Below are positions 29,654 to 51,501 of a stretch of DNA of 64,000 bases, in pieces. Made by a program: the position numbers and the translations under genes. Within the stretch, counting starts at the first letter, position 1. Every line of letters begins with the position of its first letter. Under the pieces are notes generated by a model. It ran no database searches and was not told the DNA's origin. It worked only from the letters and a program-made list of their open reading frames with translations. Location: assembly GCF_030297015.1 (NCBI RefSeq), contig NZ_AP028056.1, forward strand, positions 2,614,939 through 2,678,938, given 5' to 3'. The stretch comes from Brooklawnia propionicigenes. GTDB taxonomy: Bacteria; Actinomycetota; Actinomycetes; Propionibacteriales; Propionibacteriaceae.

Positions 29654-29726
29654 CGGGGCGTAGCGTAGTGGCTAGCGCGCCTGCTTTGGGAGCAGGAGAC
29701 CGCAGGTTCGAGTCCTGTCGCCCCGA
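29654..29726 (+). tRNA. tRNA-Pro (anticodon UGG)
   Basis: This 73-nt cloverleaf has acceptor CGGGGCG/CGCCCCG, D arm GCG..GCGC, anticodon arm CCTGC-TTTGGGA-GCAGG with TGG at the anticodon position, T arm GCAGG-TTCGAGT-CCTGT and discriminator A. CCA is not encoded. Its 3' end is repeated at 46,789, marking it as the integration target of the island. Confidence 0.95.
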
Positions 29727-29727
29727 C
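29700..29727 (+). repeat. attL-like direct repeat (28 nt)
   Basis: It starts CCGCAGGTTCGAG and ends CGCCCCGAC, covering the T arm and acceptor 3' strand of tRNA-Pro. The match to 46789-46816 is exact over 28 nt. Confidence 0.85.
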
Positions 29728-29878
29728 GCCAATGTGCCTTTGACTAGGCATTATGCGTCCATGTACTCTGATCGTTCATCCTGTCGCCCTTGGGGCGGAA
29801 TCTGCGTGGTGGCTAGGGGTGATGTCTCGAACTCGGGCACGAACGCTGGGGCTTAGGGTGGTCAAGAGTGGACAGCTT

Positions 29879-29900
29879 GGTGCCCCATATAAGCCCCAAG
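29879..29900 (+). repeat. 22-bp direct repeat near the left end of the island
   Basis: GGTGCCCCATATAAGCCCCA followed by AG. The right-end copy at 46701-46722 differs at one base (GGTGCCCCAGATAAGCCCCA then AG). Same orientation, 152 and 66 bp inside the two 28-nt repeats; possibly integrase arm-type sites. Confidence 0.6.
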
Positions 29901-30440
29901 AGCCTGCGAGATATTGATGCGGAGCCCTTGACGCCGGTCTAGGAGTGTGCATTGCGGTGTCCAAGGATGGCTACGCGCCGGTCGGAAGGGCCGGCCTGAG
30001 GGGTCGTCTCTGAGGCTCACGATTGTTTGTTACTGACTGACGGTCATCCCGATGGTCGTGACCTCGCTCTCATGCCCAGTAGCGGACGTTGGCGGATGCC
30101 CGGAATGGGACGAGCGCGACCCACGAGGCTCCGGGACGGGCCAGTTCTAAACGCCGGATGGGTCACCTGATGGCGCTGTCACCGTGCCGGCTTGAACCGG
30201 TCAACTGAACGCTGCACGCCTGTGCTGGAACGGCGACGCGGACGGGTGCCTGGGTCGGCGCCAACGTAGCCGGGCGGCCGGTGGTTCAGGTCGCGCGGAG
30301 TGGGAAAGCAGCTGGTGGTGGGGACGTGGAGCTGTGGTCCGCGCCCGCCGGTCACGCGTCTGCGGCCCAGCCGTGTCATCACGATCGTCTGTGTCGGATT
30401 GTGGTCAGGGCGAGCCGACTCACCCGGCTGGCCTGATGAT

Positions 30441-30449
30441 TGCTAGAGT
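30441..30449 (+). promoter_or_regulatory. Extended -10 promoter of the island biosynthetic operon
   Basis: TGCTAGAGT gives a TGn extended -10 with hexamer TAGAGT at 30444-30449. This puts the start near 30456, about 57 nt before the first ATG. AAAGGAG at 30476-30482 is about 30 nt upstream of that ATG, an unusually large distance; CAGGA at 30495 is nearer. Confidence 0.5.
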
Positions 30450-30512
30450 GACTGGGGCTCGACCCTGAGCGCTTCAAAGGAGAACCCCCACTTTCAGGAA
30501 CTGGACCCCCGA

Positions 30513-31667
30513 ATGAACACGGCACATGACTCGTTGTCCCTCGAAGAGCTACGGTTCTACGCGGATCGACACTCCATTCCTGTTGAGGATGTGGTGTTCA
30601 TTGCCCTCAACTTCTTTGGCCTCAACTGGGATGTTGAATTCAATCGGATGAGGACTGCGCTGCGACTGTCTGAGGACAGCCGTTTCTCTGAGGCGCGGGC
30701 ACTCGATGAATGGAATTACTATCTGGCGCTGCCGGTGCGGCCGGACAGCCCGTTCCGGCTGGAGAATGGCGACCTGTTGTTGGGCTCCGATCTGGTGGGC
30801 CGGACGTTCGGGGCCACCGAGGACTATTGCGACTCCCACTATCAACGACGCATGGGAACCTGTCTCAACATCAATCCCAACACCCGGACCTCGTGTCGCG
30901 GGTGCGACTTCTGCTACACCGCCTACCAAGTGCCACTCGATCGCCAGAAAATGACAACACCGGATGAGATCCGCGGCTTCTTCACGAACTGGGTGAGTGA
31001 ACAGCGCGTTCCCGACTTGAGTCACCTGCAACAGATCTCCATCGTCACCGGCTGCTACGGCAGTGAAGCGCACCTGGTGAATTTCCTGCTGTCCTTGAGG
31101 GATGAAGCATCGAAGCTCGGGTTCGATGGTCGGATCTTCTACCTCGGGTCCGCGCTCTCGGACCCTGTCGCCATCAAGAGGCTGGGGGAGTCGGGACCGT
31201 TCGGCTATTGCATTTCGCTCGAGTGTTTCGATCGGCGCACCATCCTGCACCGTACGAAGGCCGCCTTGTCACTCGAGGCGATCAAGGAGACGATGTCCAC
31301 CAGCATGGACGCCGGCATGGAAGTGAACTACACGTACATCGTCGGCCTGGAGCCCATCGAGGAGTTCATCCCCCGCATGGAAGAGTTCACGGCGTGCACC
31401 AACAAGTTCCCCACCGTCAATCTCCTCCAACTGCACCAGCAGCATGATGCCGGGCTACGGGACCCGTCAGCTGGGACGCTCGACTACTATCTGAGCGCAC
31501 GACGGGCCATCGAGAACATCTACCGCGACACCGAGCTGCGTCCTAAGGCCTGGGAAGATTACCGGAGCCTGTGGTTCCTGAGATTCGGCGGGGAGGCTGT
31601 CGAGGGCCCGCGGTTCCCTGACAGGGAATCGATCAGTGAGCTGCAGGGGTTGAGCGTCGGTGCCTAA
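30513..31667 (+). CDS. Radical-SAM-like enzyme with atypical cysteine motif
   Basis: This 384-residue protein opens the island operon. Near residue 123 it carries CLNINPNTRT then SCRGCDFCYTAYQ: cysteines spaced CX2CX2C with an extra cysteine 11 positions before the first. The final CX2C followed by an aromatic residue is what a radical SAM cluster loop shows, but the canonical CX3CX2C is absent. Downstream, VTGCYGSEAHLVNFLLSL, GRIFYLGSAL and SLECFDRRTILHRTKAAL have the strand/helix rhythm of a radical SAM barrel. Substrate unknown. It overlaps the phosphoketolase-like gene by 8 bp, so their functions are tied. Confidence 0.7.
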   Translation: MNTAHDSLSLEELRFYADRHSIPVEDVVFIALNFFGLNWDVEFNRMRTALRLSEDSRFSEARALDEWNYYLALPVRPDSPFRLENGDLLLGSDLVGRTFGATEDYCDSHYQRRMGTCLNINPNTRTSCRGCDFCYTAYQVPLDRQKMTTPDEIRGFFTNWVSEQRVPDLSHLQQISIVTGCYGSEAHLVNFLLSLRDEASKLGFDGRIFYLGSALSDPVAIKRLGESGPFGYCISLECFDRRTILHRTKAALSLEAIKETMSTSMDAGMEVNYTYIVGLEPIEEFIPRMEEFTACTNKFPTVNLLQLHQQHDAGLRDPSAGTLDYYLSARRAIENIYRDTELRPKAWEDYRSLWFLRFGGEAVEGPRFPDRESISELQGLSVGA

Positions 31668-33789
31668 CGGCCAACCAGCACCCAGATTGTCGAGCATCAC
31701 GGACTTCTGGCGGGCCGCCAACTTTCTGTCGCTGTCGCTGCTGTATCTCAACCGTCCGGTCCTGGCCCCCAGCACGCTCGACCCGGAGTCCGTCAAGCCG
31801 CGGATCTTCGGCCATTGGGGGGTGTGCCCCAGCATCAACGCCGTCTACGCCCACCTGAACGACCTGTGCCGCAGAACAGAGCGACAGGTCAACCTCGTGG
31901 TCGGGCCAGGACACGCGGGCCCGGCCCTGGCGGCCTGCACCTTCCTCGATGACAGCCTCCACCGGGCGTATCCCCAGTTCTCCCGAGACCTGGATGGCCT
32001 CGCCGCTCTCCTGGCGTCCTACTCAACCGAGGACGGCTTCTCCACGGAGATCTCCATGGAGTACCCCAACGTGGACTATGTCGGCGGGGAGTTGGGCAAC
32101 GCCCTGGCCTTCGCACAAGGGGCCGTGCTCGGATCGCCCGAACGAATCGTCGTCGCCATGGTCGGCGACGGCGAGCTAGAGACCGCCGCAGGGCACTCCT
32201 CGTGGCAGGGCTTCGACTATCTCCATCCCGCCCATGACGGCATCGTGATCCCGGTCATCAACGCCAATGGTTTTCGCATGGGGTCGCGGTCGTTGTGGAG
32301 CCTGCGATCACGCGATCGGCAGCGCTCGCTCCTGGCGGGTTACGGCATCGTCCCCATCTTCGTCGGCGCCGACCACCAGGAGCTGGCCGACGCATTCGAC
32401 CAGGCCCTCGACCGCGCCCACACAGGACACGGGAGTTGGCCAGCGATCGTCCTGGAGACCCCGAAGGGCTGGACAGGCCCCGGCCACCTCAACGGCGAGG
32501 CGTTCCTGGGCACCCGCCATGCCCACAAACCCCTGCTGAAGAGCCCCAGAACCGATCCCCACCAATTAGAGGAACTGCGGTCCTGGTTGGCGTCGTACGC
32601 GCCCGAGACGCTGTTCACCGCGGCGGGGGAGCCCGCTCCCGGTGTCCTCGCCTGTCTGCCGTCCGGTGACAGCGGAATCCGGCCACTGCGGGTCAGCATC
32701 CCCAGCGTTCCCGGGGATACCGCGACGAGGCCCAGCGATCACGACACCGCGTTTGCGGCTCTTCGAGACGTCGCCATGAGCGCCGTGCAGGATGATGCGA
32801 GTGTCTACCTGATCGGCCCGGACGAACTCGAATCGAATACCTTCCTGGGGGCGGGCCATTCCACACCCCTTCGCCACGGATTCACCACCGACCCCGGCTT
32901 CGCCCCCGACTCTCGCGTGATGGAAATACTCAACGAGAGCGTGTGTTTCGACTGGTCCTGGGGGCTAGCAGCCAGCAACCGACGACCGATCTTCGTCTCC
33001 TATGAAGCGTTCAGCCCGATCTTCGCGAGCCAAGCAGACCAGTTCCTGAAGCAAATCCGGGCCGGGTCCCAGGTCCCGCACCGAACAGCCGCACCCGGCG
33101 TCACCCTGGTTCTGACGAGCCTGGGCTGGTACAACACCCCGACCCACCACAATCCGAGCTTCGTCGATTCCCTCGTCAGCCGTGTCGCCAGCCCCGAACT
33201 CGCCGTCTACATGCCCGTGCAACCGAGCTCGGCCGCGGCCTACATGCGCGAGGCGCTGTGCTCCACCGACCGGCTCAGCGTCCTCGTGGCCAGCAAGCAC
33301 GGATTAGGCCTGTTGGCGAAGCAGCCCTCACCTGGATTGCACCAGGAGCCCGAGACTCTCACCGGATGGACCACCCTCGCCGAGGCAAGCGCCACCGCCG
33401 GCCCATCGGTGTGCTTCGTCGCCGTGGGTGACCTCATGGCCGAAGTCGCCACCTACGTTGTCCCCCACGTGGCCACCAAGACCGGCAGGCACACCAACGC
33501 GGTCGCCATCGAGGACCTCAGCATGCTGGGCCACGCCCACCACCCCGGCTGGGAATCGCTGCTGCCCCGTCTGGAGCACAGCCACCACGTACTGTGGCTC
33601 TACGGGGGACGTCCAACGGCGATCAAGCCACACCTCGCGGATCTGGGACTCCTCACCGGGGCGACAGTGCTGGGCTTCCAGGACAACGACCAGGCCCCGT
33701 CCGGCCTGCCACGCCTCAGGGTGAACGGACTCGACCCCGAGACGGTGGTGGCGCTGGCTGTTTCTCTCGCGGAAGGGACACCACAGTGA
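31660..33789 (+). CDS. Diverged phosphoketolase-like thiamine diphosphate enzyme
   Basis: This 709-residue protein aligns by eye with xylulose-5-phosphate/fructose-6-phosphate phosphoketolase (about 790-830 residues). Matches: FWRAANFLSLSLLYL, GHWGVCPSIN, VVGPGHAGPAL, VGGELGNALAFAQGAVL, the diphosphate motif VGDGELETAAG with PVINANGFRMG, VLETPKGWTGP, and VSYEAF in the pyrimidine domain. Differences: the loop PSHFAPE...SIHEGGELG of true phosphoketolases reads STEISME...VDYVGGELG, and RAHQVPL reads RHAHKPL, so catalytic histidines and a glutamine are altered. It probably makes or breaks a C-C bond on a different ketose-like substrate. GTG start; overlaps both neighbours. Confidence 0.8.
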   Translation: MPNGQPAPRLSSITDFWRAANFLSLSLLYLNRPVLAPSTLDPESVKPRIFGHWGVCPSINAVYAHLNDLCRRTERQVNLVVGPGHAGPALAACTFLDDSLHRAYPQFSRDLDGLAALLASYSTEDGFSTEISMEYPNVDYVGGELGNALAFAQGAVLGSPERIVVAMVGDGELETAAGHSSWQGFDYLHPAHDGIVIPVINANGFRMGSRSLWSLRSRDRQRSLLAGYGIVPIFVGADHQELADAFDQALDRAHTGHGSWPAIVLETPKGWTGPGHLNGEAFLGTRHAHKPLLKSPRTDPHQLEELRSWLASYAPETLFTAAGEPAPGVLACLPSGDSGIRPLRVSIPSVPGDTATRPSDHDTAFAALRDVAMSAVQDDASVYLIGPDELESNTFLGAGHSTPLRHGFTTDPGFAPDSRVMEILNESVCFDWSWGLAASNRRPIFVSYEAFSPIFASQADQFLKQIRAGSQVPHRTAAPGVTLVLTSLGWYNTPTHHNPSFVDSLVSRVASPELAVYMPVQPSSAAAYMREALCSTDRLSVLVASKHGLGLLAKQPSPGLHQEPETLTGWTTLAEASATAGPSVCFVAVGDLMAEVATYVVPHVATKTGRHTNAVAIEDLSMLGHAHHPGWESLLPRLEHSHHVLWLYGGRPTAIKPHLADLGLLTGATVLGFQDNDQAPSGLPRLRVNGLDPETVVALAVSLAEGTPQ

Positions 33790-34454
33790 CCTTGACCACG
33801 ATGGACGCGTCGGCCGCATCCGTGTCGGCCGCGGTGGAGTGCCTGCGCCAAGGCACCATCGTGATTGTGCCCACGCAGCGCTGGTACATGGTCTGTTGCG
33901 ACGCCCGCCGGCCAGATCTCGTGGAGGCCATCCATACGGCCAAACAACGCCCAATGGATCGACCCTTACTGCTGCTCATGCCAGACGTCGCCACCCTGCG
34001 GTCCCTGTTTCGCACCAGCCACGAGACCGATCGCCTGATCGATCGGCTCCTCCCAGGCGAAATGACGCTCCTGCTGACCTGGCGCGACCCGGAGGAACAA
34101 GATAGGTACATCAGCGCTTCCGCGGGCGAAACACTGGTGAGCTGTGCCCCGAGCCTGTTGGGCGACATCTGTGCCCTCTTCGGCGCGCCGATCGCCTGCA
34201 CGTCAGCGAATGTGTCCGGGCCCGTAGCACCCCAGGGGGCCGGCCCGTCGATCAGCTTCGAGGAGGTCACGTCGTTCGTGGCGTCTTCCGGGCTCCAGGT
34301 CGCCCTCGCTCTGGATGGGGGAGTGTGCCCGAACTTCCAGCCCACAACCATCGTCGACGCCCAAGACGCCACGTCGACACCCACGATCACCAGAGCTGGG
34401 TTTATCCATTCACGCGCCATCGAGCGTGCTCTTCACGACAGGAATGCGACATGA
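33786..34454 (+). CDS. YrdC/Sua5-domain protein with altered substrate motif
   Basis: This 222-residue protein has the YrdC fold used to make threonylcarbamoyl-AMP or to transfer carbamoyl groups. Conserved: TIVIVPT at the first strand, KQRPMDRPLLLLM (KxRxxxxPL), LLPGEMTLLLTW and CTSANVSG. The usual PTDTVYGL is PTQRWYMV, so the site that binds threonine or carbamate is remodelled. A housekeeping tRNA enzyme is unlikely inside this operon; an acyl- or carbamoyl-adenylate step in small-molecule assembly is my inference. GTG 33786 overlaps the previous stop (GTGA); ATG 33801 is an alternative. Confidence 0.78.
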   Translation: MTLTTMDASAASVSAAVECLRQGTIVIVPTQRWYMVCCDARRPDLVEAIHTAKQRPMDRPLLLLMPDVATLRSLFRTSHETDRLIDRLLPGEMTLLLTWRDPEEQDRYISASAGETLVSCAPSLLGDICALFGAPIACTSANVSGPVAPQGAGPSISFEEVTSFVASSGLQVALALDGGVCPNFQPTTIVDAQDATSTPTITRAGFIHSRAIERALHDRNAT

Positions 34455-35257
34455 CCAACCAAGCCGAGACACCGGACGCCTTCAAGGGGACGTCGTACTA
34501 CTACGCCAAGTACCGTCCGGGCATCCCGGACGAGGTCGTGGACTACGTGCAGCGTCGATTCGTCCTCGACGGCACGGGAACCCTGCTCGACATGGGCTGC
34601 GGAACCGGACTGTCGACCCTAGCCCTGGCCCCGCTGTTCGACCACACCGTAGCGTTCGACACCAACGCTGAAATGTTGGCGGCCGCGCGCCAGGCCGACC
34701 CGGGCACCTCGAGGATCGAGTGGCAGCAACGATCCGACCGTGATGTTGTTGCGGGCGAAGGCCCCTACCGGGTTGCAACCGCCTGCCGCTCCTTCAACTG
34801 GATGGACCAATACCCCCTGCTCGACACGCTCCATTCGACCCTGACCTGCGGCGGCGGTGTCGCGCTGATCGGCGACGGCAGCTTCTGGACAGGTGACGAT
34901 CCATGGCAAGCCCTCATCCGGTCGATCATCCAACGCTTCCTCGGCGAGGACAGACGAGCAGGCAAGAAGAAGTACTCCGCCCCGACCGAGCCCTACACCA
35001 CGATGCTCACCAACGCCGGCTACGCCCGCGTCGAGTACGAAGACATTCCCGTCACCCGGACCTGGACCACACAGACCATCCTCGGCTACCTCTACTCCAC
35101 CTCCTTCTCCGCCCGCGACCTGTACGGGGATCGACTCGACGAGTTCGAAGCCACCATGACGTCCGAACTGTTGACGGCCAACGATGGCCTGGACCAATTC
35201 GTCGAGAATGCCCACTTCGTGGTGCAAAGCGGGATCCACGAGTGCCAACCCGAATGA
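34451..35257 (+). CDS. SAM-dependent class I methyltransferase
   Basis: This 268-residue protein has a methyltransferase-11/25-type fold: YYAKYRPGIPDEVVDYV before the motif I loop LLDMGCGTGLSTLAL, an acidic end of strand 2 (AFDTNAEML), and the post-I region ATACRSFNWMD. The N-terminal pattern is that of ubiquinone/menaquinone-type and trans-aconitate-type small-molecule methyltransferases, not nucleic acid enzymes. The C-terminal half is longer than the core and may cap the substrate. Coupled by ATGA overlaps on both sides, so it acts in the same pathway. Confidence 0.88.
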   Translation: MTNQAETPDAFKGTSYYYAKYRPGIPDEVVDYVQRRFVLDGTGTLLDMGCGTGLSTLALAPLFDHTVAFDTNAEMLAAARQADPGTSRIEWQQRSDRDVVAGEGPYRVATACRSFNWMDQYPLLDTLHSTLTCGGGVALIGDGSFWTGDDPWQALIRSIIQRFLGEDRRAGKKKYSAPTEPYTTMLTNAGYARVEYEDIPVTRTWTTQTILGYLYSTSFSARDLYGDRLDEFEATMTSELLTANDGLDQFVENAHFVVQSGIHECQPE

Positions 35258-35880
35258 AGGCTGTCAGCTTCGACATCGGCAACACCCTCCTCCAGGGCGG
35301 GCCAGGCGGCGGATACTGTTCCCACTTCGCGCGCTGCGTCGATCGCCCATTCGACTGCTTGCGGCCCATCTTTCGTCAGTACTTTCTGACGACGCGCACC
35401 GACCTCGCCGCAGCAACCAGGGCGGCGTGCGGCGCGATCGGCCACGCCGACGCCGACGCCATCATCGACAGCTATCGCCCGCAGCCTGCGCGGGTGTTCC
35501 CAGATGCTCTGCCCTGTCTCGAGTGGCTGAAAACTCGAGGCTTCAGGATGTTCGGGCTCAGTAACTGCACCCCATGGGAAGCAGGGGGGCTGGTTGAGAC
35601 AGGGCTCGCCGCGTTCCTGGAAGACGTGATCTACTCCTTCGACGCCGGCGCCATCAAGCCGGAACAGCCAATATTTCAGCGCGCGATCGAGCAGGTGGGG
35701 ATCCCCACCGCGGAGGTGACCCACGTCGGCGACAGCCTCGGCGCCGACATCCACGGTGCGATCAGCGTCGGCTGGAAGGCCGTGCTCCTCGACCGCGGCC
35801 GCTCCAGCGAGCATCCCGGCCTGCCACCTGCGGTTCCCGTGATCTCGACGCTCGACGACCTCCCAGACTCCCTCACGTAG
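35254..35880 (+). CDS. HAD-superfamily hydrolase
   Basis: This 208-residue Rossmann-like HAD protein has motif I SFDIGNTLL, motif II GLSNCTPWE, motif III lysine in AIKPEQPIFQRAI and motif IV THVGDSLGADI. In motif I the second aspartate of the phosphatase pattern DxD is glycine, so the general acid is missing as in some dehalogenases and non-phosphatase HADs. A helical cap (about residues 15-85) precedes motif II. Its position suggests dephosphorylation or a related cleavage of a pathway intermediate; the altered motif makes that uncertain. ATG 35254 overlaps the previous stop. Confidence 0.82.
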   Translation: MKAVSFDIGNTLLQGGPGGGYCSHFARCVDRPFDCLRPIFRQYFLTTRTDLAAATRAACGAIGHADADAIIDSYRPQPARVFPDALPCLEWLKTRGFRMFGLSNCTPWEAGGLVETGLAAFLEDVIYSFDAGAIKPEQPIFQRAIEQVGIPTAEVTHVGDSLGADIHGAISVGWKAVLLDRGRSSEHPGLPPAVPVISTLDDLPDSLT

Positions 35881-35892
35881 TCAGGTGGCGAC

Positions 35893-36612
35893 GTGACAGA
35901 TGGAAGCGAAGACGACGCGTGGCGGCGGCTCGCCGGCCTGGCCGAGACTCTCCACTCCCCGGCCACGCTGCGCGACGACGACCTTGCGCGCGCCGAGGAG
36001 CAGATGCGGGCAACCATCGATTCCCTCTCCCCGCATGTAGGCAGCGTCGCCGGCTGCGTCGCAGCACTCATCCACGAGGTGCGAGCTCAGAGGTCCGAAC
36101 TGGAGGAACTGAGACAACGCCTGGTCTCCGAAGCACGACTCGACCCTCTCACCGGCGTCCAGAACCGACTGCGAGGACGAGAGCTCCTCACGGAGTGGCA
36201 GCTCGCGGGCCAGCAGTTCACCGTCTGCTTCGTCGATCTCGACGGACTGAAGCTGGTGAACGACCATCTCGGCCACCACGAGGGCGACAGGTACCTGCGC
36301 TGCGTGGCGGAGAATCTGAACGCCCTGACCGAAGCGAACGCCGTTTGCCGGGTCGGCGGCGACGAGTTCCTCGTCCTGTTCCTGAACGCTGCTGAGGATG
36401 ACTGCCGTGACCTCATGGCTGGCGTCCAGACGAGACTTGCGGAAGCGTCACCGTCGACCGGGCCACAGTTCAGCATCAGCTACGGCATCGCCGGGGGAAT
36501 CAGTACCAGCCCGCGTGGCGAGGACCTGCTCCGCCTCGCCGACGAACGGATGTACCAGCACAAGGGAGCGCAGCATTCGCTGCGCAGCCCGGACCCCGCC
36601 ACCACCTCGTAG
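35893..36612 (+). CDS. GGDEF domain protein (probable diguanylate cyclase)
   Basis: This 239-residue soluble protein has an N-terminal helical part with a coiled coil (about residues 45-80) and a full GGDEF domain: LDPLTGVQNRLRGRELL, VCFVDLDGLKLVNDHLGHHEGD (split), RVGGDEFLVLF and SYGIAG. The active loop is intact, so it should make cyclic di-GMP; no RxxD inhibitory site is apparent before it. It has no sensor or membrane segment. It is 12 bp after the HAD gene and is the last gene of the operon, an unusual companion for biosynthetic enzymes. Confidence 0.88.
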   Translation: MTDGSEDDAWRRLAGLAETLHSPATLRDDDLARAEEQMRATIDSLSPHVGSVAGCVAALIHEVRAQRSELEELRQRLVSEARLDPLTGVQNRLRGRELLTEWQLAGQQFTVCFVDLDGLKLVNDHLGHHEGDRYLRCVAENLNALTEANAVCRVGGDEFLVLFLNAAEDDCRDLMAGVQTRLAEASPSTGPQFSISYGIAGGISTSPRGEDLLRLADERMYQHKGAQHSLRSPDPATTS

Positions 36613-36691
36613 GAGCCGCGATCACCCAGCATCAGATCCGCGTCCAGCCTGCCGGTCCAACCGCTTCCGGCCGCCGGCGGCCAGCCTACGA
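36607..36691. terminator. Inverted repeats between convergent island operons
   Basis: TCGTAGG (36607-36613) pairs with CCTACGA (36685-36691), each arm containing the stop codon of one converging gene. Inside lies the perfect palindrome GGCCGCCGGCGGCC at 36669-36682. Probably a bidirectional transcription end. Confidence 0.5.
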
Positions 36692-37468
36692 ACCCCGATG
36701 CTGCTCAGCGACGATCTGGGTCAACACCGACTCGGCCCTCTGGACCGCGTCGGACACAATCTCGCGCCCCAGTTCCGGAGTTGCTGCAGCAGCGTCACCG
36801 ATGATTCCGTCCGTGCTGAGACGACTATCGCCGGACTTCCACGGCCAGGTCACCCCACGATCCAAGATCTTCGCCCGGACATCCGGCTGCGCACCCTCGG
36901 GCAACGCGCCGGGCAACAAACTCACGTCCACCAGATGCGGCGCCAACTCCATCATCACCGACGTCTCACTCTTCCCCCCATGGACCTCGGGCCAGGCAGA
37001 GCCAGACTTGACGGACGACAAAGCCGTCGGGTGCAGGACCGCGACCGAGACGCCATAGGTCGACTGCAGCTCGTAGACCAACGCCTCAAGCACGCCGCGG
37101 TTGCCCCCATGGCCGTTCACCAACGCCAGGTTCCGCGACGCGCTGCTCTCAACAAGCCCCGCAACGATCCCGTGCAGGGTGGCGCAATAGGTGGCGACGG
37201 TGAGGCTGATCGTGCCCGGACTCCCTGCATGTTCACGTGACAAACCGAACGGGACAGTGGGTAGCCTCCACAGGTCAAGCTGCTCGCCGTATGCCGCCAC
37301 GAGCCGGTCTGTGAAACCTCCCGCCAGAACGGAGTCGGTCTCAATCGGCAGGTGGGGTCCGTGCTGCTCGGTCGAGCCGAGCGGCAAGCAGATGATCGAG
37401 TCTCGACCGACCAGCTCCCGCACCTGCTCCCTGGACAGGGCCGTGTAGTCACGCGCATCAGTCTTCAT
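36686..37468 (-). CDS. Creatininase-family amidohydrolase
   Basis: This 260-residue metal-dependent amidohydrolase has all family metal ligands: LPLGSTEQHGPHLPIETDS, the D of that segment, LVNGHGGNRGVLEAL, and HGGKSETSVMMEL. Family members open creatinine, process formamidopyrimidines (ArfB) or trim the mycofactocin peptide (MftE). It is the last gene of the minus-strand island operon, after an ATP-grasp and a radical SAM gene, so a role in making or trimming an amide in a small molecule or peptide fits. ATG 37468 follows GGAGG; a longer frame exists without a ribosome-binding site. Confidence 0.85.
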   Translation of the reverse strand: MKTDARDYTALSREQVRELVGRDSIICLPLGSTEQHGPHLPIETDSVLAGGFTDRLVAAYGEQLDLWRLPTVPFGLSREHAGSPGTISLTVATYCATLHGIVAGLVESSASRNLALVNGHGGNRGVLEALVYELQSTYGVSVAVLHPTALSSVKSGSAWPEVHGGKSETSVMMELAPHLVDVSLLPGALPEGAQPDVRAKILDRGVTWPWKSGDSRLSTDGIIGDAAAATPELGREIVSDAVQRAESVLTQIVAEQHRGS

Positions 37469-37589
37469 GCCAGGAACCTCCAACAACGTGGATGTGTGGG
37501 ACCGGTGGGACACCAGTCCCGTGCAAAATGCGATACTTGTAGGTGCTAGGCCGGTTGACGTGGAAGCGCCTCCCCGGCTCGAGGATCAT
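37458..37589 (-). CDS. Possible 43-residue small protein (uncertain)
   Basis: This short frame starts at ATG 37589 (MILEPGRRFHVNRPSTYKY), has CAGGG 8 nt upstream, and overlaps the creatininase start by 11 bp. It lies between the ATP-grasp and creatininase genes on the same strand, where a precursor peptide would be expected if the operon makes a modified peptide. Third-position GC is high only in the first half. It also covers a hairpin at 37498-37520. It may be nothing more than an intergenic frame. Confidence 0.25.
   Translation of the reverse strand: MILEPGRRFHVNRPSTYKYRILHGTGVPPVPHIHVVGGSWHED
37498..37520. promoter_or_regulatory. Hairpin upstream of the creatininase gene
   Basis: GGGACCGGTG pairs with CACCAGTCCC around a 3-nt loop, with one mismatch. 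It lies 30 bp upstream of the creatininase start. It may act as an mRNA structure or operator. Confidence 0.4.
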
Positions 37590-37668
37590 GGTGACCCTGC
37601 TTCAAGTCTCTCACCGCTCAGGCAGGGGGGTTCTGCGTTCGCGACCGTCGAGGCGGTGGCTGTCGACG

Positions 37669-38919
37669 TTAGCTGCGAGCGACTGCGTCCTGCTCGACGG
37701 CGAAGAAGGGTGAGAGGGATCTCAGGGCGCTGCGGCGGACTTCCTGTGTCCAGCGCTCGAGCGACCACTTGTCACTGCTGCGCGGCGCCACGGAGCGAAG
37801 GTGCTTCTCGCAGGCGGCATCGCTCCAGATGCGGGCATCGGGGTGATGGGGGAACAGTGCCTCGTTGACCTGGTCGAGCAGGTCGAGGATGTCGTCCTGG
37901 TGAGTGCTGCCGTGACGGGCCACGATGTCGACCACACCGAATGACAGTGTTCCGTTCAGCATGTGCGAGACGAGACTGAACCCCCCGCACACACGGGTGT
38001 TGATCTCGTGAGCCGTGAAGCGCCCGTCACTGACAACTCCATCCACCCCGAATGCGCCCTGGAAGCCCGTTTCCTGAGCGAGGCGCAACACCAAGTCGGC
38101 GAGACGGGCCGTGTCACTGTGTGAGAAGGAGGTGGCGTCGGCGACCGGGGCGAACACCCCGGGGGCGGTGACGCGCCCATCGGACTCGGTGTATCCGACG
38201 AGTGCCTCGACAGGGCCAAGGAAGCTCAGGCGATCCCCGATCAAGACGCCGTAGATGGTCGTCGGGCACCCCGTCATGAATCGCGACACTCGAACGCCGC
38301 GACAGGCGTGCAGCAGCCGGCGTGAGATGTCGGTGATGGCTTCGTCGCTGAGGCGTTGATGGATGAAGTACACATGATCCGAGGACATGGAGATCATGTC
38401 GTGGGGATCGCCGGCCGCCACGCAGGGTGTGCGGGAACGCAGTAGCTCCGCGAACTCGTCCGGGTCGCGGGTGTCGTTGAAGGGAATGTAGGTGACGTCG
38501 TAGCGGGCCTGTTGGCCCAAGATGGCGACTTGACTCTGTTTGGATTCGGCTTGTTTCCAGGCCGGTAAACGGGCGCCAATCACTGGTCTTCCGTCAAGTG
38601 TGGGGTGGCTGACGGGTGATCCGGCGTACACGACGGCCCGCTTGTGGGGGTCGATGGCGTGGAGTGACTGTAAGAGGTCCTCGTGGGGGTTTGCGAGGGT
38701 GTGGTCGAAGTCGCGGAAATACTCCGTGAGTGTTGCGCGGTCCTCTAACGCCCTGAGATGGGTGACCTCGGGTGCGCCGGCGTCGGTGAGGTAGGAATCG
38801 ATCACGTTGCGGGCCGCGTGCTGGTTCACGAGGATGACGGGCCGTCCGGCCAGGATGGGGGAAAGGTCCTCGATCAGCAGGTCACGAAGGTGCCGTACGA
38901 GTGTCTCGGTGTCAGGCAT
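37669..38919 (-). CDS. ATP-grasp family protein
   Basis: This 416-residue protein has a diverged ATP-grasp fold. The clearest parts are VSRFMTGCPTTIYGVLIGDR, FQGAFGVDGVVSDGRFTAHE followed by INTRVCGGFSL, which correspond to the ATP/Mg-binding strands and the ExNxR motif. Such enzymes ligate a carboxylate to an amine through an acyl phosphate. The N-terminal 150 residues (LAGRPVILVNQHAARNVID, AVVYAGSPVSHP) look like the preceding Rossmann-like domain. ATG 38919 overlaps the radical SAM gene by 8 bp; the upstream extension is out of context. Substrate unknown. Confidence 0.72.
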   Translation of the reverse strand: MPDTETLVRHLRDLLIEDLSPILAGRPVILVNQHAARNVIDSYLTDAGAPEVTHLRALEDRATLTEYFRDFDHTLANPHEDLLQSLHAIDPHKRAVVYAGSPVSHPTLDGRPVIGARLPAWKQAESKQSQVAILGQQARYDVTYIPFNDTRDPDEFAELLRSRTPCVAAGDPHDMISMSSDHVYFIHQRLSDEAITDISRRLLHACRGVRVSRFMTGCPTTIYGVLIGDRLSFLGPVEALVGYTESDGRVTAPGVFAPVADATSFSHSDTARLADLVLRLAQETGFQGAFGVDGVVSDGRFTAHEINTRVCGGFSLVSHMLNGTLSFGVVDIVARHGSTHQDDILDLLDQVNEALFPHHPDARIWSDAACEKHLRSVAPRSSDKWSLERWTQEVRRSALRSLSPFFAVEQDAVARS

Positions 38920-39922
38920 GCTGCGCTGCCTGGGGCGACTTTTTGAGGAATCGCATGCAGTCGGCGCACAGGTCGCATTGTCCGAAGTAGTCCTGGGGGT
39001 CAATGTGGCCACCGTTGCTGGCGACTTGGTCGACAAGTCCGTCGACTCCTTGGTCGAGGAGGGTCAACAAGATGGGGTCTGAGAACGGGTCGTAGGAGTC
39101 GAGTAGCTCGGTGATGGTGGACTGGTAGATGTTGCCGAGGATGGCGGCGCGACAGATGTGGACGTCACCGTTGGGCAGGAATCGCAGTGAGTGGACCTTG
39201 TCTGGCGAGTTGGCCCAAGGGATGTCGCTGCATCGTTGCACGGGTAGCTCTGGGAGCCGGGGATAGTAGTCGCTCAGGGTGTGACGGTTGAAGCCTGCGG
39301 GGATGATGGTGTTCCCCTGGGAGACGCGGACGCCATATTTGTCGACGAGGCCTGCGAGGAGCTGCTCGGTGGTCTGGTTGTATTCGTTCTGGTGCTCTCG
39401 CTGGACGACCCAGGATGGGTGGAGGAAGAGCTCGCTGAACCCGTTCGCTTGGAGTTGGGTGATGAACTGTTCGACGAACGGCAGCGGAATCCTGGGCTGG
39501 TGGAATGCGTCGACGGACAGGTGGACCAGGGTGACGCCGGAGTCGACGAGGCCCGCGACAGTGTCCGCGATCACCGATGGGTTTCTGCTGAAGAAGCCGT
39601 TCGTGATGAGTTCTCGGGAAGCGACGTTGTGGGTACGGGCGAGTTGGAAGAGTCGCTGGACTGTTGCTGGGTAGAGCAGTGGCTCACCGCCGTAGACCAT
39701 CATTGACGTCACGTTGCCCGCTGAGTAGAGGACCGTCGACGCCGATACCACCGCATCGAGGCCTTCGTAGGATCGATCCGGGTTGCGGTCGTCCGTCATG
39801 ACGGAGCAGTGCTCGCACCAGCCTGTGCACCGCTTGGTCAGGAGATACTCAACCCTGCTGACGTCCAGGAAGCCGGAATTTTGGGGGGAGGTGTGGTCGG
39901 CACCCGCGGGCGACTGTTCCAT
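38912..39922 (-). CDS. Radical SAM enzyme with SPASM-like C-terminus
   Basis: This 336-residue protein has a canonical radical SAM motif, YLLTKRCTGWCEHCSV (CX3CX2C) near residue 30, followed by MMVYGGEPLLYP (the GGE motif that binds SAM). The C-terminal half has RFLPNGDVHICRAAILGNIY and, after it, GQCDLCADCMRF, cysteines suited to an auxiliary Fe-S cluster. Such enzymes modify peptides or small molecules. It leads the operon with ATP-grasp and creatininase-like genes. Only 15 bp separate its ATG from an IS5 element; a TAGGCT box 6 nt before the ATG may still serve as the -10. Confidence 0.82.
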   Translation of the reverse strand: MEQSPAGADHTSPQNSGFLDVSRVEYLLTKRCTGWCEHCSVMTDDRNPDRSYEGLDAVVSASTVLYSAGNVTSMMVYGGEPLLYPATVQRLFQLARTHNVASRELITNGFFSRNPSVIADTVAGLVDSGVTLVHLSVDAFHQPRIPLPFVEQFITQLQANGFSELFLHPSWVVQREHQNEYNQTTEQLLAGLVDKYGVRVSQGNTIIPAGFNRHTLSDYYPRLPELPVQRCSDIPWANSPDKVHSLRFLPNGDVHICRAAILGNIYQSTITELLDSYDPFSDPILLTLLDQGVDGLVDQVASNGGHIDPQDYFGQCDLCADCMRFLKKSPQAAQHA

Positions 39923-39928
39923 GCCGTC

Positions 39929-39934
39929 AGCCTA
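39929..39934 (-). promoter_or_regulatory. TAGGCT -10 box left between the IS5 element and the radical SAM gene
   Basis: On the minus strand TAGGCT is followed by GACGGC and ATG, giving a leaderless arrangement. Any -35 must now lie inside the IS5 end, so the promoter may be weakened or hybrid. Confidence 0.4.
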
Positions 39935-39937
39935 CTA

Positions 39938-40952
39938 GAGCCTGTTACGAAAGTCGTTTGAGCCATCCGTTGATGACGGTGATGTGGGTGGTGGCGGCGA
40001 ATCGGACGGCGAGTTTGTCGTAGCGGGTGGCGAAGCCTCGGTGGTGTTTGAGCTTGTTGATGCCGCATTCGACGGCGTGGCGGTCCTTGTAGACGGCCGG
40101 GTCGAAGGCGGGTGGTCGGCCGCCCTGGCCGCCGCGGCGTTTCCGGTTGCGGGTCTGGTCCTTCGGGGTGGGGATGGTGGCCTTGATGTGGTGGGCGCGC
40201 AGCCAGGCCCGGTTCGCGCGGGAGGAGTAGGCCCGGTCCGCCAGGACCCGGTCGGGACAGCGGCGGGGTGCTCCGACCGGGTTGGCGACACAGATCGCCT
40301 CCAGCACGAGGGTGAACTCGGGGCTGTCGCCGGCCTGTCCGGCGGTGTGGTGGAAAGCGAGGACGCCGCGGTCCTGGTCGATGGCGAGATGGGTCTTGGT
40401 GGACCAGCCGCCCCGGGACCGTCCGAACCCGTGGTCGGCGGGTTCCCCGGCCACCAGGGTGATCGAGTCGTGGCGGGCGCCGGCGGCGTGGATGTGGCCG
40501 CGGCTGGTCGTGGAGTCGACCGACACCTGCCATTTCACCTTGCCGCGGGCCTGGGCGAGTGCTCGCAGGGCTGCCTCGATCTGGTCCCACACGCCGAGGA
40601 CCTGCCAGACGGCGAATAGGGCGTACACCCGTCCCCACGGGCCGTACCGGGAGGGCACGTCCCGCCACGGGCAGCCCACCCGGACCCGGAACCGGATCCC
40701 GTCGATCAGGGCGCGCAACGGCCACTTGCGGGGCCGTCCCCGCCGACACCGGGTCGGGAGGACGCTCTGCAGGAACCGCCACTGTGCGTCGGTGAGGTCA
40801 TGGCGACGGCTGGCATCTATCGTGGACACGAGGACTCCCGGGGAAGTAGGAGTGATTCGACACCAATCCGTCTACCCCGGGAGTCCTCCCACGCTCAGCA
40901 ACGACACGCTGACAAGCGCATCCCTAACACAAACCAATTTCGGAACAGGCTC
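39938..40952 (-). mobile_element. IS5-family insertion sequence, complete
   Basis: Terminal inverted repeats GAGCCTGTTACGAAA (39938-39952) and its partner at 40938-40952 (GAGCCTGTTCCGAAA read inward) differ at one base. The element is flanked by CTAG on both sides (39935-39938 and 40952-40955), fitting CTAG or TA target duplication. It carries one intact DDE transposase gene whose stop codon lies in the left repeat. Confidence 0.88.
39945..40829 (-). CDS. IS5-family DDE transposase
   Basis: This 294-residue transposase appears intact. The N-terminal DUF4096-type domain ([28 protein letters not shown]) is followed by the DDE core: [11 protein letters not shown] (first D), [14 protein letters not shown] (second D) and the Y(2)R(3)E(6)K-type signature near [21 protein letters not shown] (split by normal spacing). 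GTG start at 40829. A 12-bp inverted repeat (40832-40843 with 40875-40886) lies just upstream of the start and could shield it from outside transcription, as in other IS elements. Confidence 0.92.
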
Positions 40953-40954
40953 TA

Positions 40955-42191
40955 GTAGTGTGTCGCTGCTAATGATTTGTGTATGTTGAGGCTTGACTGT
41001 TTCCTGACCGATAATCGATCAGGAGGAGCCGCGTGATGCCCAGACCGAAGGATCATGTCGTTGAGTTGACGGATGCTGATCGTGCGTCGTTGACGCGGGT
41101 GGTCTCGCGTGGCGCGCACCCGGTCAGGACGGTCATGAGGGCGCGGGTTCTGCTCGAGCTCGACGAGAACGCCAGGGCGGTGCCGCACAGGCGGGTCGTC
41201 GCGGAGCGAGTGGGCGTGTCGATACAGACGGTGTATCTGATCGCGAAGCAGTTCACGGCCTCTGGCGGGGATGTTCATGCGGTGATCCACCGCAAGAAGC
41301 GGGTCACGCCGCCGGTGCCAGCGAAAGTGACCGGGGACGTCGAGGCCAGGGTGATCGCGTTGGCGTGCACAAGGCCACCGGAAGGGTATGACCGGTGGTC
41401 GCTGCGGCTGCTGGAGAAACACGTGGCCCTCACCGACGGGATCGGGCCGCTGGATCACTCCACGATCGGTCGGACCCTGAAAAAAGGGGGCTTCGTCCTC
41501 ACCTGAAAGCGTGCTGGACGATCCCGCCCAAAGCCAACGGCGAGTTCGTCGCGCGGATGGAGGACGTGCTGGAGGTCTACCACCGCCCCTACGACCCGGC
41601 CGTTCCGGTGGTCTGTATGGACGAAAAGCCATACCAGCTCCTCGGCCACGCCCGCGATCCGATCCCTGCCTGCCCGGGCCACGACCTCAAAGAAGACTCC
41701 GAGTACGTCCGGCACGGCACCTGCTCGATCTTCGTGTGGGTCGAGCCCCTCGCCGGCCGCCGCCGGGTCGACGCCCGGGCGCAGCGGACCCGGATCGACT
41801 GGGCCACGGAAATCGATCAGCTTCTCAACGTCGACTACCCCGACGCGCAACGGGTCGTCCTGGTCATGGACAACCTCAACACGCACACCCTCGGTTCGCT
41901 CTACGAAGCGTTCGAGCCAGCCAAAGCACGCGCGCTGGCCGAGCGGCTCGAGATCCACTACACACCCAAGCACGGCTCCTGGCTCAACATCGCCGAGATC
42001 GAGCTGTCCGCCCTGACCCGCCAGTGCCTGACCCGCCGGATCGACGACCTCGACATCCTCAACACCGAACTCGCCGCCTGGCAGGCCGCAACCAACGACG
42101 ACGAGCGCCAAGTCCGCTGGCAGTTCACCACGACCGACGCCCGCATCAAACTTCACCACCTATACCCAAACACTTAGCAGCGACACACTAC
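40955..42191 (+). mobile_element. IS630-family insertion sequence, complete
   Basis: Ends read GTAGTGTGTCGCTGCTAA inward from both sides (40955-40972 and 42174-42191, perfect), flanked by TA at 40953-40954 and 42192-42193, the IS630/Tc1 target. It abuts the IS5 element directly, sharing the CTAG that flanks it. Confidence 0.9.
41033..42177 (+). CDS. IS630-family transposase, two overlapping frames joined by frameshift
   Basis: The first frame (41033-41506) encodes the helix-turn-helix part ([20 protein letters not shown]) and [17 protein letters not shown]. The second frame (open from 41395, -1 relative, to 42177) encodes the DDE catalytic part: [23 protein letters not shown] and [13 protein letters not shown]. 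The overlap contains A6G5 at 41480-41490, a slippery tract where a -1 shift would produce the full enzyme, a known habit of this family. GTG 41033 or ATG 41036 follows AGGAGGAG. Confidence 0.85.
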
Positions 42192-42274
42192 TAGTGCTCC
42201 TGTCCCCCCAGACTCCAGTTGTGGGTGAGGAGGCGTTGAAGAACGTCGAGGAGGTCAAGCGGTGCAGCACTAGT
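42190..42274. repeat. 85-bp segment bounded by a 9-bp inverted repeat
   Basis: ACTAGTGCT (42190-42198) and AGCACTAGT (42266-42274) bound a non-coding stretch next to the IS630 right end. It may be the scar of a third element or a small non-autonomous one. Confidence 0.4.
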
Positions 42275-42456
42275 CACGCTTGCAGCGTAGGCCTCGCGGG
42301 CGCCAAGCCCGACATCGTGACAGCAGCCAGTTGGTGACTGGGGAACGCGCGGTTCTGCCGCAGAGTGCGTGAGGGTAGCCTGTCGGCTCCGGTTCCGAGC
42401 GCACGACCGACTTTGCCGCAGTGCGAACCACCCCTGCCGCTTGTGCGGAACTGAGC

Positions 42457-43026
42457 CTACTTGGCCCGGTGGTTCGGGCGTTCAGGTGCACCGCCAATGG
42501 CGGTCCAGTCCGCAGAGATAAAGGTCGTGGGCACGCCCGAGGTGGTGGCCTGGACTGTAACTCCGAACGAGACTCCACGGTCATCGAGGAACTGGAACTC
42601 CCAGCCAAGGTGGTCCTTGCTCTCGCGGACCTTGATCTTCCGCAGTTCTCCGGCTCGCAATTCGAACTTAGTCGCCAACCTCAACCGAGCCAGGCGTTCG
42701 GCTTCTTGGTCGTCGAGATAGCTGAGCTCATTATTACGCCGAGTCGCCCAATCGAGGAGCTTCCGCACATCGGGCCATAGCTTTCGTAGACCCGTGGCAA
42801 GTGACACGATCACCGCAACGTCACCGGCCGATGCGCCCCACTCGAACTCGGACAACCGGATCTCGACCACGTACCCGTCGCTGTTCGGGTAGAGCTCGAT
42901 GATCTTGTCACGAAGGGCGGCTACCTCAGGCAAGTCGGGCCAGCCCTCATACTCCACACTCACCACTTCATCCGCGTACAGATTGGGATAGCCGACTGAC
43001 TCGATCTCGATGAGCACGAGGCACAT
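42457..43026 (-). CDS. Uncharacterised protein in the defence segment
   Basis: This 189-residue protein is not recognised. It begins MCLVLIEIESVGYPNLYADE, continues with acidic strands (YVVEIRLSEFEWGASAGDVAV), a hydrophobic helix with VIVSLATGLRKLWPDV, and a charged C-terminal half rich in beta strands (FELRAGELRKIKVRESKDH, WEFQFLDDRGVSFGVTVQA). The GASAG-plus-hydrophobic segment resembles short conserved pieces of effector-associated proteins, but I cannot name a family. It stands alone, 203 bp from the TOTE helicase on the same strand. Coding quality supports this strand over the opposite one. Confidence 0.55.
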   Translation of the reverse strand: MCLVLIEIESVGYPNLYADEVVSVEYEGWPDLPEVAALRDKIIELYPNSDGYVVEIRLSEFEWGASAGDVAVIVSLATGLRKLWPDVRKLLDWATRRNNELSYLDDQEAERLARLRLATKFELRAGELRKIKVRESKDHLGWEFQFLDDRGVSFGVTVQATTSGVPTTFISADWTAIGGAPERPNHRAK

Positions 43027-43229
43027 CCTAGAGGTCGCCAGCAGATTGAGGGTTTCGACCTGGAACGGCGGTTAGTGAATCACGGCATTACGGCCACCCT
43101 CGACCTGTCTGACACGTCATACACACTGGCTGGAGCGCTGGGTCGGGACATCCTCAATTGCCGCGTGCAGTGCGCCCAATCGTGCCGGTGAACGTTTGCG
43201 GCTCCGAGCTGAAACGGGGGCGATACATG

Positions 43230-45602: not shown

Positions 45603-45604
45603 AG

Positions 45605-46057
45605 TCAGTCCCGGTCGCTCTCACTGGCGCCTGCGCTCCCAACAGAGCGTGTGTCCTTGAGTTGCCTGTCGACATGCGTGGGCTCGCCGAGCGCGGCGTC
45701 ACCCACGGCCCGCTCGTCGCCGATTGCGGCTGATTGATGAAGGAGGACGCGCTGCCTGATGCGGCTCATGATGGAGGGAACGTCGTGGATCATGGTCTCG
45801 CGGATGATGGTGGTGTCGACCAGCAGGTAGCCGTGCGCAATGCGGTTCCGCATGCCCCACATGAGCGGCCAGACCTCGCCGAAGATGTCCTCCCGCTCGT
45901 CGGAGTCGATCGCGGCGAGCGCCTCGATCCCAGCGGACAAGCGCATGCACACCGCGTCGATGACCAGACGCTCTTCAAGGCCCTGCTCGGCGTGGGTCTG
46001 CATGATCTCGAAGTGCGCCAACGCGTCTTGAAGGATCTCGATCGTGGTCCGGCTCAC
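45605..46057 (-). CDS. HEPN domain toxin (HepT-like)
   Basis: This 150-residue HEPN RNase-like protein is paired with the MNT gene upstream. The helical domain ends in the catalytic RX4-6H motif, here RNRIAHGYLLVD, seen in HepT toxins and DUF86 proteins. Preceding helices IEILQDALAHFEIMQTHA and RLVIDAVCMRLSAGIEAL match the family. The C-terminal 35 residues are polar and probably disordered. The GTG start overlaps the MNT stop (GTGA). In characterised HEPN/MNT modules the HEPN toxin cleaves RNA until it is modified by the nucleotidyltransferase. Confidence 0.88.
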   Translation of the reverse strand: MSRTTIEILQDALAHFEIMQTHAEQGLEERLVIDAVCMRLSAGIEALAAIDSDEREDIFGEVWPLMWGMRNRIAHGYLLVDTTIIRETMIHDVPSIMSRIRQRVLLHQSAAIGDERAVGDAALGEPTHVDRQLKDTRSVGSAGASESDRD

Positions 46058-46524
46058 AGTGCCACGGCCTCGGCCAGGATCCGGTCGCGTAGCTCGGGCC
46101 GCAGCACCGAGTCGGGCACGACATCCACCGGGCAACCCACCACTCGGCTTACGGCGCGCTCCAGGACGCCGAGTTGTATCAAGCTGAGGGGTCGTTCCAT
46201 GGTGAACAGCAAGTCGATGTCGGAATCCTCCCGATCCTCCCCAGTGGCGACCGACCCGAACACTCGGACGTTGCTGCCACCAGCCTCAGCCACCAGACGC
46301 TTCACCTCGGCGGCGTGCTTACGCAGCCGACGCCCCAGCGAGGATGTCCCATGGAAGCGAAGCAGACGGGACACCTCGGGCTGGCTGCGGCCGATCTCGG
46401 CGGCGATCTGCGTCTGGGTCATTCCCGCTGCGGCCGCCTGCCGCACAGCCCGGACCAGTTCGGCGCGCGCACGCGAGATTCGGTAGTCGGCGTCGCGGGC
46501 TACCTCTGCCAGACTGCTCGTCAT
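46054..46524 (-). CDS. MNT nucleotidyltransferase antitoxin with N-terminal HTH
   Basis: This 156-residue protein has an Xre-like helix-turn-helix (AGMTQTQIAAEIGRSQPEVS, about 34-53) and a minimal nucleotidyltransferase domain with VFGSVATGEDREDSDIDLLF (GSx10DxD). In MntA/HepT systems this enzyme AMPylates the HEPN toxin. The fused HTH suggests autorepression at the palindrome just upstream. The ATG is 6 nt after a TATAAT box, so the mRNA is leaderless. Confidence 0.88.
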   Translation of the reverse strand: MTSSLAEVARDADYRISRARAELVRAVRQAAAAGMTQTQIAAEIGRSQPEVSRLLRFHGTSSLGRRLRKHAAEVKRLVAEAGGSNVRVFGSVATGEDREDSDIDLLFTMERPLSLIQLGVLERAVSRVVGCPVDVVPDSVLRPELRDRILAEAVAL

Positions 46525-46530
46525 GGCCTC

Positions 46531-46548
46531 ATTATAGCAACGGCTATA
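46531..46548 (-). promoter_or_regulatory. Leaderless promoter and operator palindrome of the MNT/HEPN operon
   Basis: On the minus strand TGCTATAAT is an extended, perfect -10 (hexamer at 46536-46531), followed by 6 nt and ATG. It overlaps TATAGC-AACG-GCTATA (46533-46548), a perfect 6-bp inverted repeat suited to binding by the MNT helix-turn-helix. Repressor binding would cover the -10. Confidence 0.65.
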
Positions 46549-46700
46549 CGTACTGAGTGTCCGCGGTCCGTGCCCAGGCGGCTCACGCAACCCCCCGGCG
46601 GACTGTTGAGTTCAGGGATGGAGTAGCGCCCGATTGAGATGGGCGCACGCGAAAGGCCTTGTCAGGGCCAGGGTGGGGCGACAGGTCGGCGAGCAATCTC

Positions 46701-46722
46701 GGTGCCCCAGATAAGCCCCAAG
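46701..46722 (+). repeat. 22-bp direct repeat near the right end of the island
   Basis: GGTGCCCCAGATAAGCCCCA then AG, one mismatch to 29879-29900. Confidence 0.6.
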
Positions 46723-46788
46723 TGGTGCCCGGAACCCAAGACCGCTCCGCATCGTCCCTTGTCAGATGGGGGTTATGCAGGTGACTTG

Positions 46789-46816
46789 CCGCAGGTTCGA
46801 GTCCTGTCGCCCCGAC
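46789..46816 (+). repeat. attR-like copy of the tRNA-Pro 3' end (28 nt)
   Basis: Exact copy of 29700-29727 (CCGCAGGTTCGAG ... CGCCCCGAC). The tRNA 5' half and anticodon arm are missing, so it is an attachment remnant and not a tRNA gene. Confidence 0.85.
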
Positions 46817-51463: not shown

Positions 51464-51479
51464 CCGGTTCACCGGTCAC
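51460..51479 (+). promoter_or_regulatory. Intercistronic hairpin (dehydrogenase/transketolase)
   Basis: GTGACCGGT (51460-51468) and ACCGGTCAC (51471-51479) form a compact stem overlapping the dehydrogenase stop codon, just before the AGGAGGG of the next gene. Confidence 0.5.
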
Positions 51480-51501
51480 GCTCCACACCACAGGAGGGCA
51501 G

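Follow-up and report, generated by a model that had tools for sequence, protein, structure and literature searches.

Departures from the canonical CX3CX2C cysteine motif of radical S-adenosylmethionine (SAM) enzymes have been described for PhnJ (CX2CX21CX5C), HmdB (CX5CX2C), QueE (CX14CX2C) and ThiC (CX2CX4C) (PMC4389238), and CX2CX2C serves as a ferredoxin-type motif (PMC9431491). In phosphoketolases (XFP), H64, Y501 and N549 act at the phosphate, H97 and H553 in proton transfer, E479 on thiamine diphosphate (ThDP) and H142 in dehydration (PMC6435721, PMC10547157). Relatives of both enzyme types adjoin each other in a 64,000-nucleotide stretch of the Brooklawnia propionicigenes genome (contig NZ_AP028056.1, positions 2,614,939 to 2,678,938; hereafter the window), within a set of nine genes on both strands. 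We put the probability at roughly 60% that the set represents a specialised-metabolite biosynthetic cluster that is widespread but undescribed, borne here by an integrative island at tRNA-Pro. An initial annotation of this DNA had recognised no pathway, and literature searches limited to open-licence papers likewise gave no cluster with this gene combination.

Six plus-strand open reading frames (ORFs) are present at 30513-36612. They encode a radical-SAM-fold protein (rSAM1, 30513..31667; PF04055), a phosphoketolase-like ThDP enzyme (31660..33789; PF09364 and PF03894), a YrdC/Sua5/TsaC-like protein (33786..34454; PF01300), a class I SAM-dependent methyltransferase (34451..35257; PF13649, with weak BioC/Tam-type matches), a HAD-superfamily hydrolase (35254..35880; PF00702) and a GGDEF protein (35893..36612; PF00990). 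Translation of the YrdC-like gene begins with a GTG at 33786 or with an ATG further on (33801), not at the ORF start, 33594. Junctions of -8, -4, -4, -4 and +12 bp bear out the tight coupling claimed for these six genes, and the limits drawn around them proved too narrow. A convergent minus-strand trio (36686-39922) begins 73 bp past the last plus-strand gene and encodes a creatininase/MftE-like amidohydrolase (36686..37513), an ATP-grasp ligase-like protein (37669..38919) and a second radical SAM protein (rSAM2, 38912..39922). These genes are part of the same set because other loci hold relatives in one run with rSAM1 and the phosphoketolase: creatininase and YrdC at one (L010), and creatininase, ATP-grasp and YrdC at another (L013). 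A promoter scan found no sigma-70-like site.

Evidence for a functional cluster comes from its recurrence. Relatives of rSAM1 occur at 52 loci of the genome collection, including Komeilibacteria, Saccharibacteria, Clostridia, one Thaumarchaeota and one Micrarchaeota metagenome-assembled genome (MAG), and on plasmids of Mycobacterium, Streptomyces and Nocardia. The distribution is sparse among the genomes sampled near B. propionicigenes, with rSAM1 in 4 of 297 genomes of the class (this one and three further) and in 11 of 247 of the order, this one included. Partner genes were annotated across 60 rSAM1 loci with seeded hidden Markov models (HMMs). Within ~10 kb we found a methyltransferase at 55 loci, a phosphoketolase-like gene at 49, HAD at 49, an enolase-like gene at 48, YrdC at 30, PhyH at 30 and creatininase at 27; these counts are conditional on rSAM1, through which the loci were found, and they include closely related, non-independent Streptomyces loci as well as MAG loci that may have been mis-binned. 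At 45/60 loci all three of the phosphoketolase-like, HAD and methyltransferase genes are present, and gene order recurs in subtypes, so that the gene set, far from never co-occurring elsewhere, supports the coupled biosynthetic operon that had been proposed. Because rSAM1 relatives adjoin relatives of the other genes in dozens of unrelated genomes, the association is more than chance.

In subtype 1 the order is rSAM1-phosphoketolase-enolase-like-hyp1-HAD-methyltransferase-creatininase-PhyH-(ATP-grasp)-YrdC, and in subtype 2 it is rSAM1-enolase-like-HAD-GGDEV/hyp-phosphoketolase-methyltransferase. Actinopolymorpha and relatives, from the order that includes B. propionicigenes, have rSAM1-hyp1 only. 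Shorter operons read phosphoketolase-methyltransferase-rSAM1 in Clostridia and ThDP alpha-ThDP beta-methyltransferase-rSAM1 in Patescibacteria. Clostridia thus place the phosphoketolase-like enzyme where Patescibacteria place two subunits resembling phosphonopyruvate/sulfopyruvate decarboxylase (TIGR03297/TIGR03845/TIGR03846), ahead of methyltransferase-rSAM1. The subunits score below the equivalog cut-offs, enzymes of this type are absent from the window, and phosphoenolpyruvate (PEP) mutase was not seen in the Patescibacteria loci that carry them. This exchange of ThDP enzyme types across recurrent operons defines the core as a ThDP enzyme, the methyltransferase and rSAM1, with the ThDP enzyme exchangeable.

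Several loci vary around this plan. In Nocardia (L046:16840-18937, L008 and L063), two further radical SAM genes (rSAM3, rSAM4) and an extra methyltransferase replace PhyH, creatininase and YrdC. Upstream of the cluster in Nocardia, pyrF (orotidine 5'-monophosphate decarboxylase) lies beside a GntR regulator (L008:12862-13560, L063:8188-8898, L066:7854-8549); this copy may confer self-resistance or simply be carried along on a plasmid, and is absent from L046. In an Actinophytocola MAG (L050:2789-9643), an apparent phosphonate gene set ends beside the rSAM1 cluster; by eye it comprises nucleotidyltransferase/PEP-mutase-like, phosphonopyruvate decarboxylase-like, alcohol-dehydrogenase-like and LicD-like genes.

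The makeup of the core allows a different interpretation, namely that ThDP enzyme, methyltransferase and rSAM1 serve to make a cofactor or to modify a macromolecule such as tRNA, with Actinobacteria having added further genes. The bare core is found in Patescibacteria and Clostridia whose genomes span roughly 0.7-1.7 Mb, a size range in which secondary metabolism is rare, and the YrdC family is known from tRNA t6A. However, the bare core lacks YrdC, the distribution is very patchy (3 strong matches in 380 Patescibacteria), and the complete version has a sugar-acid-type enolase, PhyH and creatininase, which are typical of small-molecule work. We therefore regard a cofactor or macromolecule role as rather unlikely.

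Instead of CX3CX2C, all 57 of 57 relatives of rSAM1 carry CX2CX2C (C128, C131 and C134 in the window copy) together with an invariant TGC (C181), within the motif N-x-N-x-R-[ST]-x-C-x-G-C-x-F-C. CX2CX2C is absent from the non-canonical motifs listed in PMC4389238, and among open-licence papers our literature search found it only for other proteins. The score against PF04055 is 22.4 bits, under the cut-off of 29.5, and rSAM1 has no sequence relative in the PDB. The AlphaFold2 (AF2) model (mean predicted local distance difference test score, pLDDT, 91.6) is nonetheless a radical SAM barrel. Its Foldseek matches are distant radical SAM folds only (LipA, RlmN, PylB and viperin, probability 1.00; lipoyl synthase at E 2.6e-07; TM 0.42-0.61), from which it differs by CX2CX2C, by TGC in place of GGE and by an extra N-terminal domain of ~120 residues. 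In the rSAM1 tree the window copy falls inside a Patescibacteria/Clostridia clade (support 98/93) at 44-48% identity. A further Patescibacteria genome (L102, G462) encodes a very divergent relative that reads NCAGCKAC (CX2CX2C) and lacks recognised partner genes, and in a second Clostridia MAG (L062:1500-2412) a stop or frameshift interrupts rSAM1, reflecting decay or an assembly error.

These features raise the question of whether rSAM1 cleaves SAM at all. Together with C181, CX2CX2C could supply four Cys ligands, leaving no iron free and making rSAM1 an Fe-S TIM-barrel protein; the sub-threshold PF04055 score, the four invariant Cys, the replacement of CX3CX2C and GGE and the ferredoxin-type nature of CX2CX2C all fit. 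Against this stand the fold matches at probability 1.00, a YIVGL(D/E) strand that resembles a SAM-contact motif, and the varied Cys spacing of known radical SAM enzymes (PMC4389238). Loss of SAM cleavage, which is compatible with any of the other explanations weighed here, strikes us as quite unlikely.

The phosphoketolase-like enzyme has the whole-length XFP fold (XFP_N 277.7 bits, XFP 68.4 bits) but scores far under the NCBIfam cut-offs (397.6 bits against 777 for the best phosphoketolase model). It keeps the ThDP-binding GDG..N and E479, the phosphate-site residues H64, Y501 and N549, and the equivalents of H97, H320, S440 and H553. Elsewhere in the active site, H142 is Glu (E130 in the window), Q321 is Lys (K290), and the Q546/H548 loop is lost, with Q546 deleted and H548 replaced. 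All 19/19 cluster copies show these changes, against 0/3 canonical copies, among them the own-genome enzyme. The S. chartreusis and Bradyrhizobium phosphoketolases (L014, L015) are canonical and served as outgroup. With its ThDP- and phosphate-site residues kept, the cluster enzyme appears retuned rather than dead. Retention of the phosphate site and alteration of the sugar-phosphate pocket suggest keto/C2 cleavage or transfer on another substrate, and the decarboxylase-type ThDP enzyme of Patescibacteria points towards the same acyl-anion step.

Phosphoketolase, HAD and GGDEF proteins are common in primary metabolism, and a mundane explanation would be an operon for catabolism or the phosphoketolase pathway whose oddities come from mis-annotation. 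The genome of B. propionicigenes, though, encodes a canonical phosphoketolase (521 bits) at a separate locus and, elsewhere, two more YrdC proteins, and the island copies are therefore additional. Neither acetate kinase nor phosphotransacetylase is among the cluster genes, conservation extends to the radical SAM, YrdC and creatininase partners, and three active-site changes run through the whole phosphoketolase family. An ordinary catabolic operon is accordingly very improbable. Elsewhere in the window, 51439-52380 weakly matches a phosphoketolase HMM (36 bits); it and its neighbour 52387-53340 may represent a split transketolase with no connection to the cluster.

The YrdC-like protein (PF01300 93.6 bits, cut-off 25.1) shares the domain, K-x-R-P and SAN-x-SG of TsaC/Sua5/YrdC threonylcarbamoyl-AMP synthases, as seen in the alignment. 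It differs in falling under the TIGR00057 equivalog cut-off (100.4 bits against 123.2), in that no TsaD partner gene was seen in the cluster and in reading PTQRWYMVC where PT[DE]TxYGLG is expected. PTxRWYMxC holds across 30 aligned members (at least 90% per position). Changed motifs in the radical SAM, phosphoketolase and YrdC proteins, as first reported, thus stand. For the HAD protein the report of a changed nucleophile motif needs qualification: the change is at D+2 (Gly; DIGNT against DxDxT), and the nucleophilic Asp itself is kept in a family reading DxGxT or a close variant. The GGDEF protein is canonical (RVGGDEF), and a relative reading GGDEV follows the HAD gene in Nocardia and subtype-2 loci. 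Taken across these families, the altered motifs are family traits and not decay. Active-site changes common to very distant lineages indicate enzymes under selection for shared chemistry, and the new chemistry anticipated by the initial annotation is likely for the same reason.

The minus-strand proteins extend this comparison. The creatininase-like protein (PF02633, 181 bits; metal-ligand motifs kept) is 45-51% identical to creatininases of actinobacterial or archaeal complete clusters. As in the mycofactocin cluster, where MftE accompanies a radical SAM protein, a creatininase-family hydrolase here adjoins radical SAM genes; however, it scores 111.3 bits on TIGR03964 (cut-off 172), and MftA/B/C/D/F were not found among the nine cluster genes. 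The ATP-grasp-like protein (AF2 model pLDDT 77; Foldseek matches to PurT, PurK, DdlB and an ATP-grasp peptide ligase) has homologues in the same cluster at six loci (L013, L029, L036, L043, L045, L054), and those of actinobacterial or archaeal complete clusters match it. The methyltransferase is closest to those of actinobacterial relatives (about 42% identity), and YrdC to actinobacterial or archaeal complete clusters (37-43%). By these identities the window locus is a hybrid, with rSAM1 from the Patescibacteria/Clostridia clade and methyltransferase, YrdC, creatininase and ATP-grasp nearest to complete clusters.

All nine genes lie on an island at a tRNA-Pro (TGG) gene (29654..29727, plus strand; ARAGORN; Rfam RF00005, 69.3 bits), which alone was recovered by the search for riboswitches and other RNAs. 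Its 3' end (29700..29727) is repeated as an exact 28-bp direct copy at 46789..46816, also on the plus strand (CCGCAGGTTCGAGTCCTGTCGCCCCGAC), and the two repeats enclose 17.1 kb. Among the called ORFs of 29728-46788 no integrase was recognised; an IS4/5-type transposase and a second transposase with a DDE_3 domain were. A TOTE-type primase fused to a DEAD/ResIII helicase (43233-45602, minus strand; PF22548, 235 bits) may have a part in conflict or belong to a mobile element, and at the right island end (45608-46590, minus strand) overlapping HepT-like and MNT-like nucleotidyltransferase genes form a probable toxin-antitoxin pair. In the one genome searched from a different species of the genus, unrelated DNA follows the same tRNA-Pro gene, and the tRNA end recurs ~49 kb off. 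The site thus looks like an insertion hotspot rather than an empty site.

This cargo bears on another reading, in which the island serves in defence or conflict, the cluster product is an antiviral small molecule or a modified nucleotide, and rSAM2 is viperin-like. The TOTE-type primase-helicase, the MNT/HepT-like pair and a GGDEF nucleotide cyclase within the operon are compatible with this, as is a weak viperin similarity of rSAM2 (canonical CX3CX2C; NF038283 32.5 bits, PADLOC pVip 30.5 bits). That similarity falls far under the 180-bit NF038283 cut-off, no rSAM2 relative was found in other rSAM1 loci, no viral contig carries rSAM1, and PADLOC models match none of the other seven cluster proteins scanned (methyltransferase left out). 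A defence function is therefore improbable.

Returning to the biosynthetic interpretation, the recurrence of the core enzymes, including the odd rSAM1, in scattered lineages means that the cluster probably makes a compound nobody has identified. Reasoning from protein families, the core would make the scaffold: rSAM1 would perform a radical transformation of a small polar precursor, on which the ThDP enzyme would cleave or transfer a C2/keto unit, and the methyltransferase would methylate, possibly a carboxylate. The accessory genes would elaborate this scaffold, with HAD removing a phosphate. The altered amino-acid/carboxylate motif of YrdC suggests carbamoyl-adenylate activation of an amine (or amino acid) other than threonine; ATP-grasp may form an amide, and the creatininase-type hydrolase may open, close or trim an amide or cyclic ureide. 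As for the GGDEF protein, it would act as a regulator or a repurposed nucleotidyl cyclase. A sugar-derived or acyl-adenylate intermediate, as the initial annotation suggested, is an inference. The combination of YrdC, creatininase-type hydrolase and ATP-grasp ligase suggests a small carbamoylated or cyclic-ureide, amino-acid-like product, likely exported by a permease. Amino-acid-permease-like genes beside two sub-lineages, as we read the sequence, are consistent with such export; L006 has an annotated MFS transporter.

Some observations weigh against a specialised metabolite. The window's own gene set includes no transporter or resistance gene, and it is missing the enolase-like, PhyH and hyp1 (OmdA-like) genes of complete clusters. 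A secondary metabolite would not usually be expected in small-genome Patescibacteria or an archaeal MAG, although MAG binning errors are possible. Each of the putative reaction assignments derives from superfamily membership. A copy of the cluster enolase-like gene elsewhere in the B. propionicigenes genome was considered and rejected, as only generic relatives of 26-30% were present.

Tentatively, rSAM1 may found a new CX2CX2C radical SAM family that, with interchangeable ThDP enzymes and a methyltransferase, defines a pathway common to Patescibacteria, Clostridia, archaea and Actinobacteria and yields a new class of small molecules through an undescribed radical and ThDP sequence. The biosynthetic system on this mobile island is real, widespread and apparently undescribed. 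A conserved gene set that has no polyketide synthase or nonribosomal peptide synthetase core, and for which no description was found, is easily missed by cluster finders. It brings together a radical SAM family whose cysteine spacing appears not to have been described and a phosphoketolase family with defined active-site changes, whose chemistry is directly testable, and its minimal four-gene form in Patescibacteria is small enough for reconstitution.

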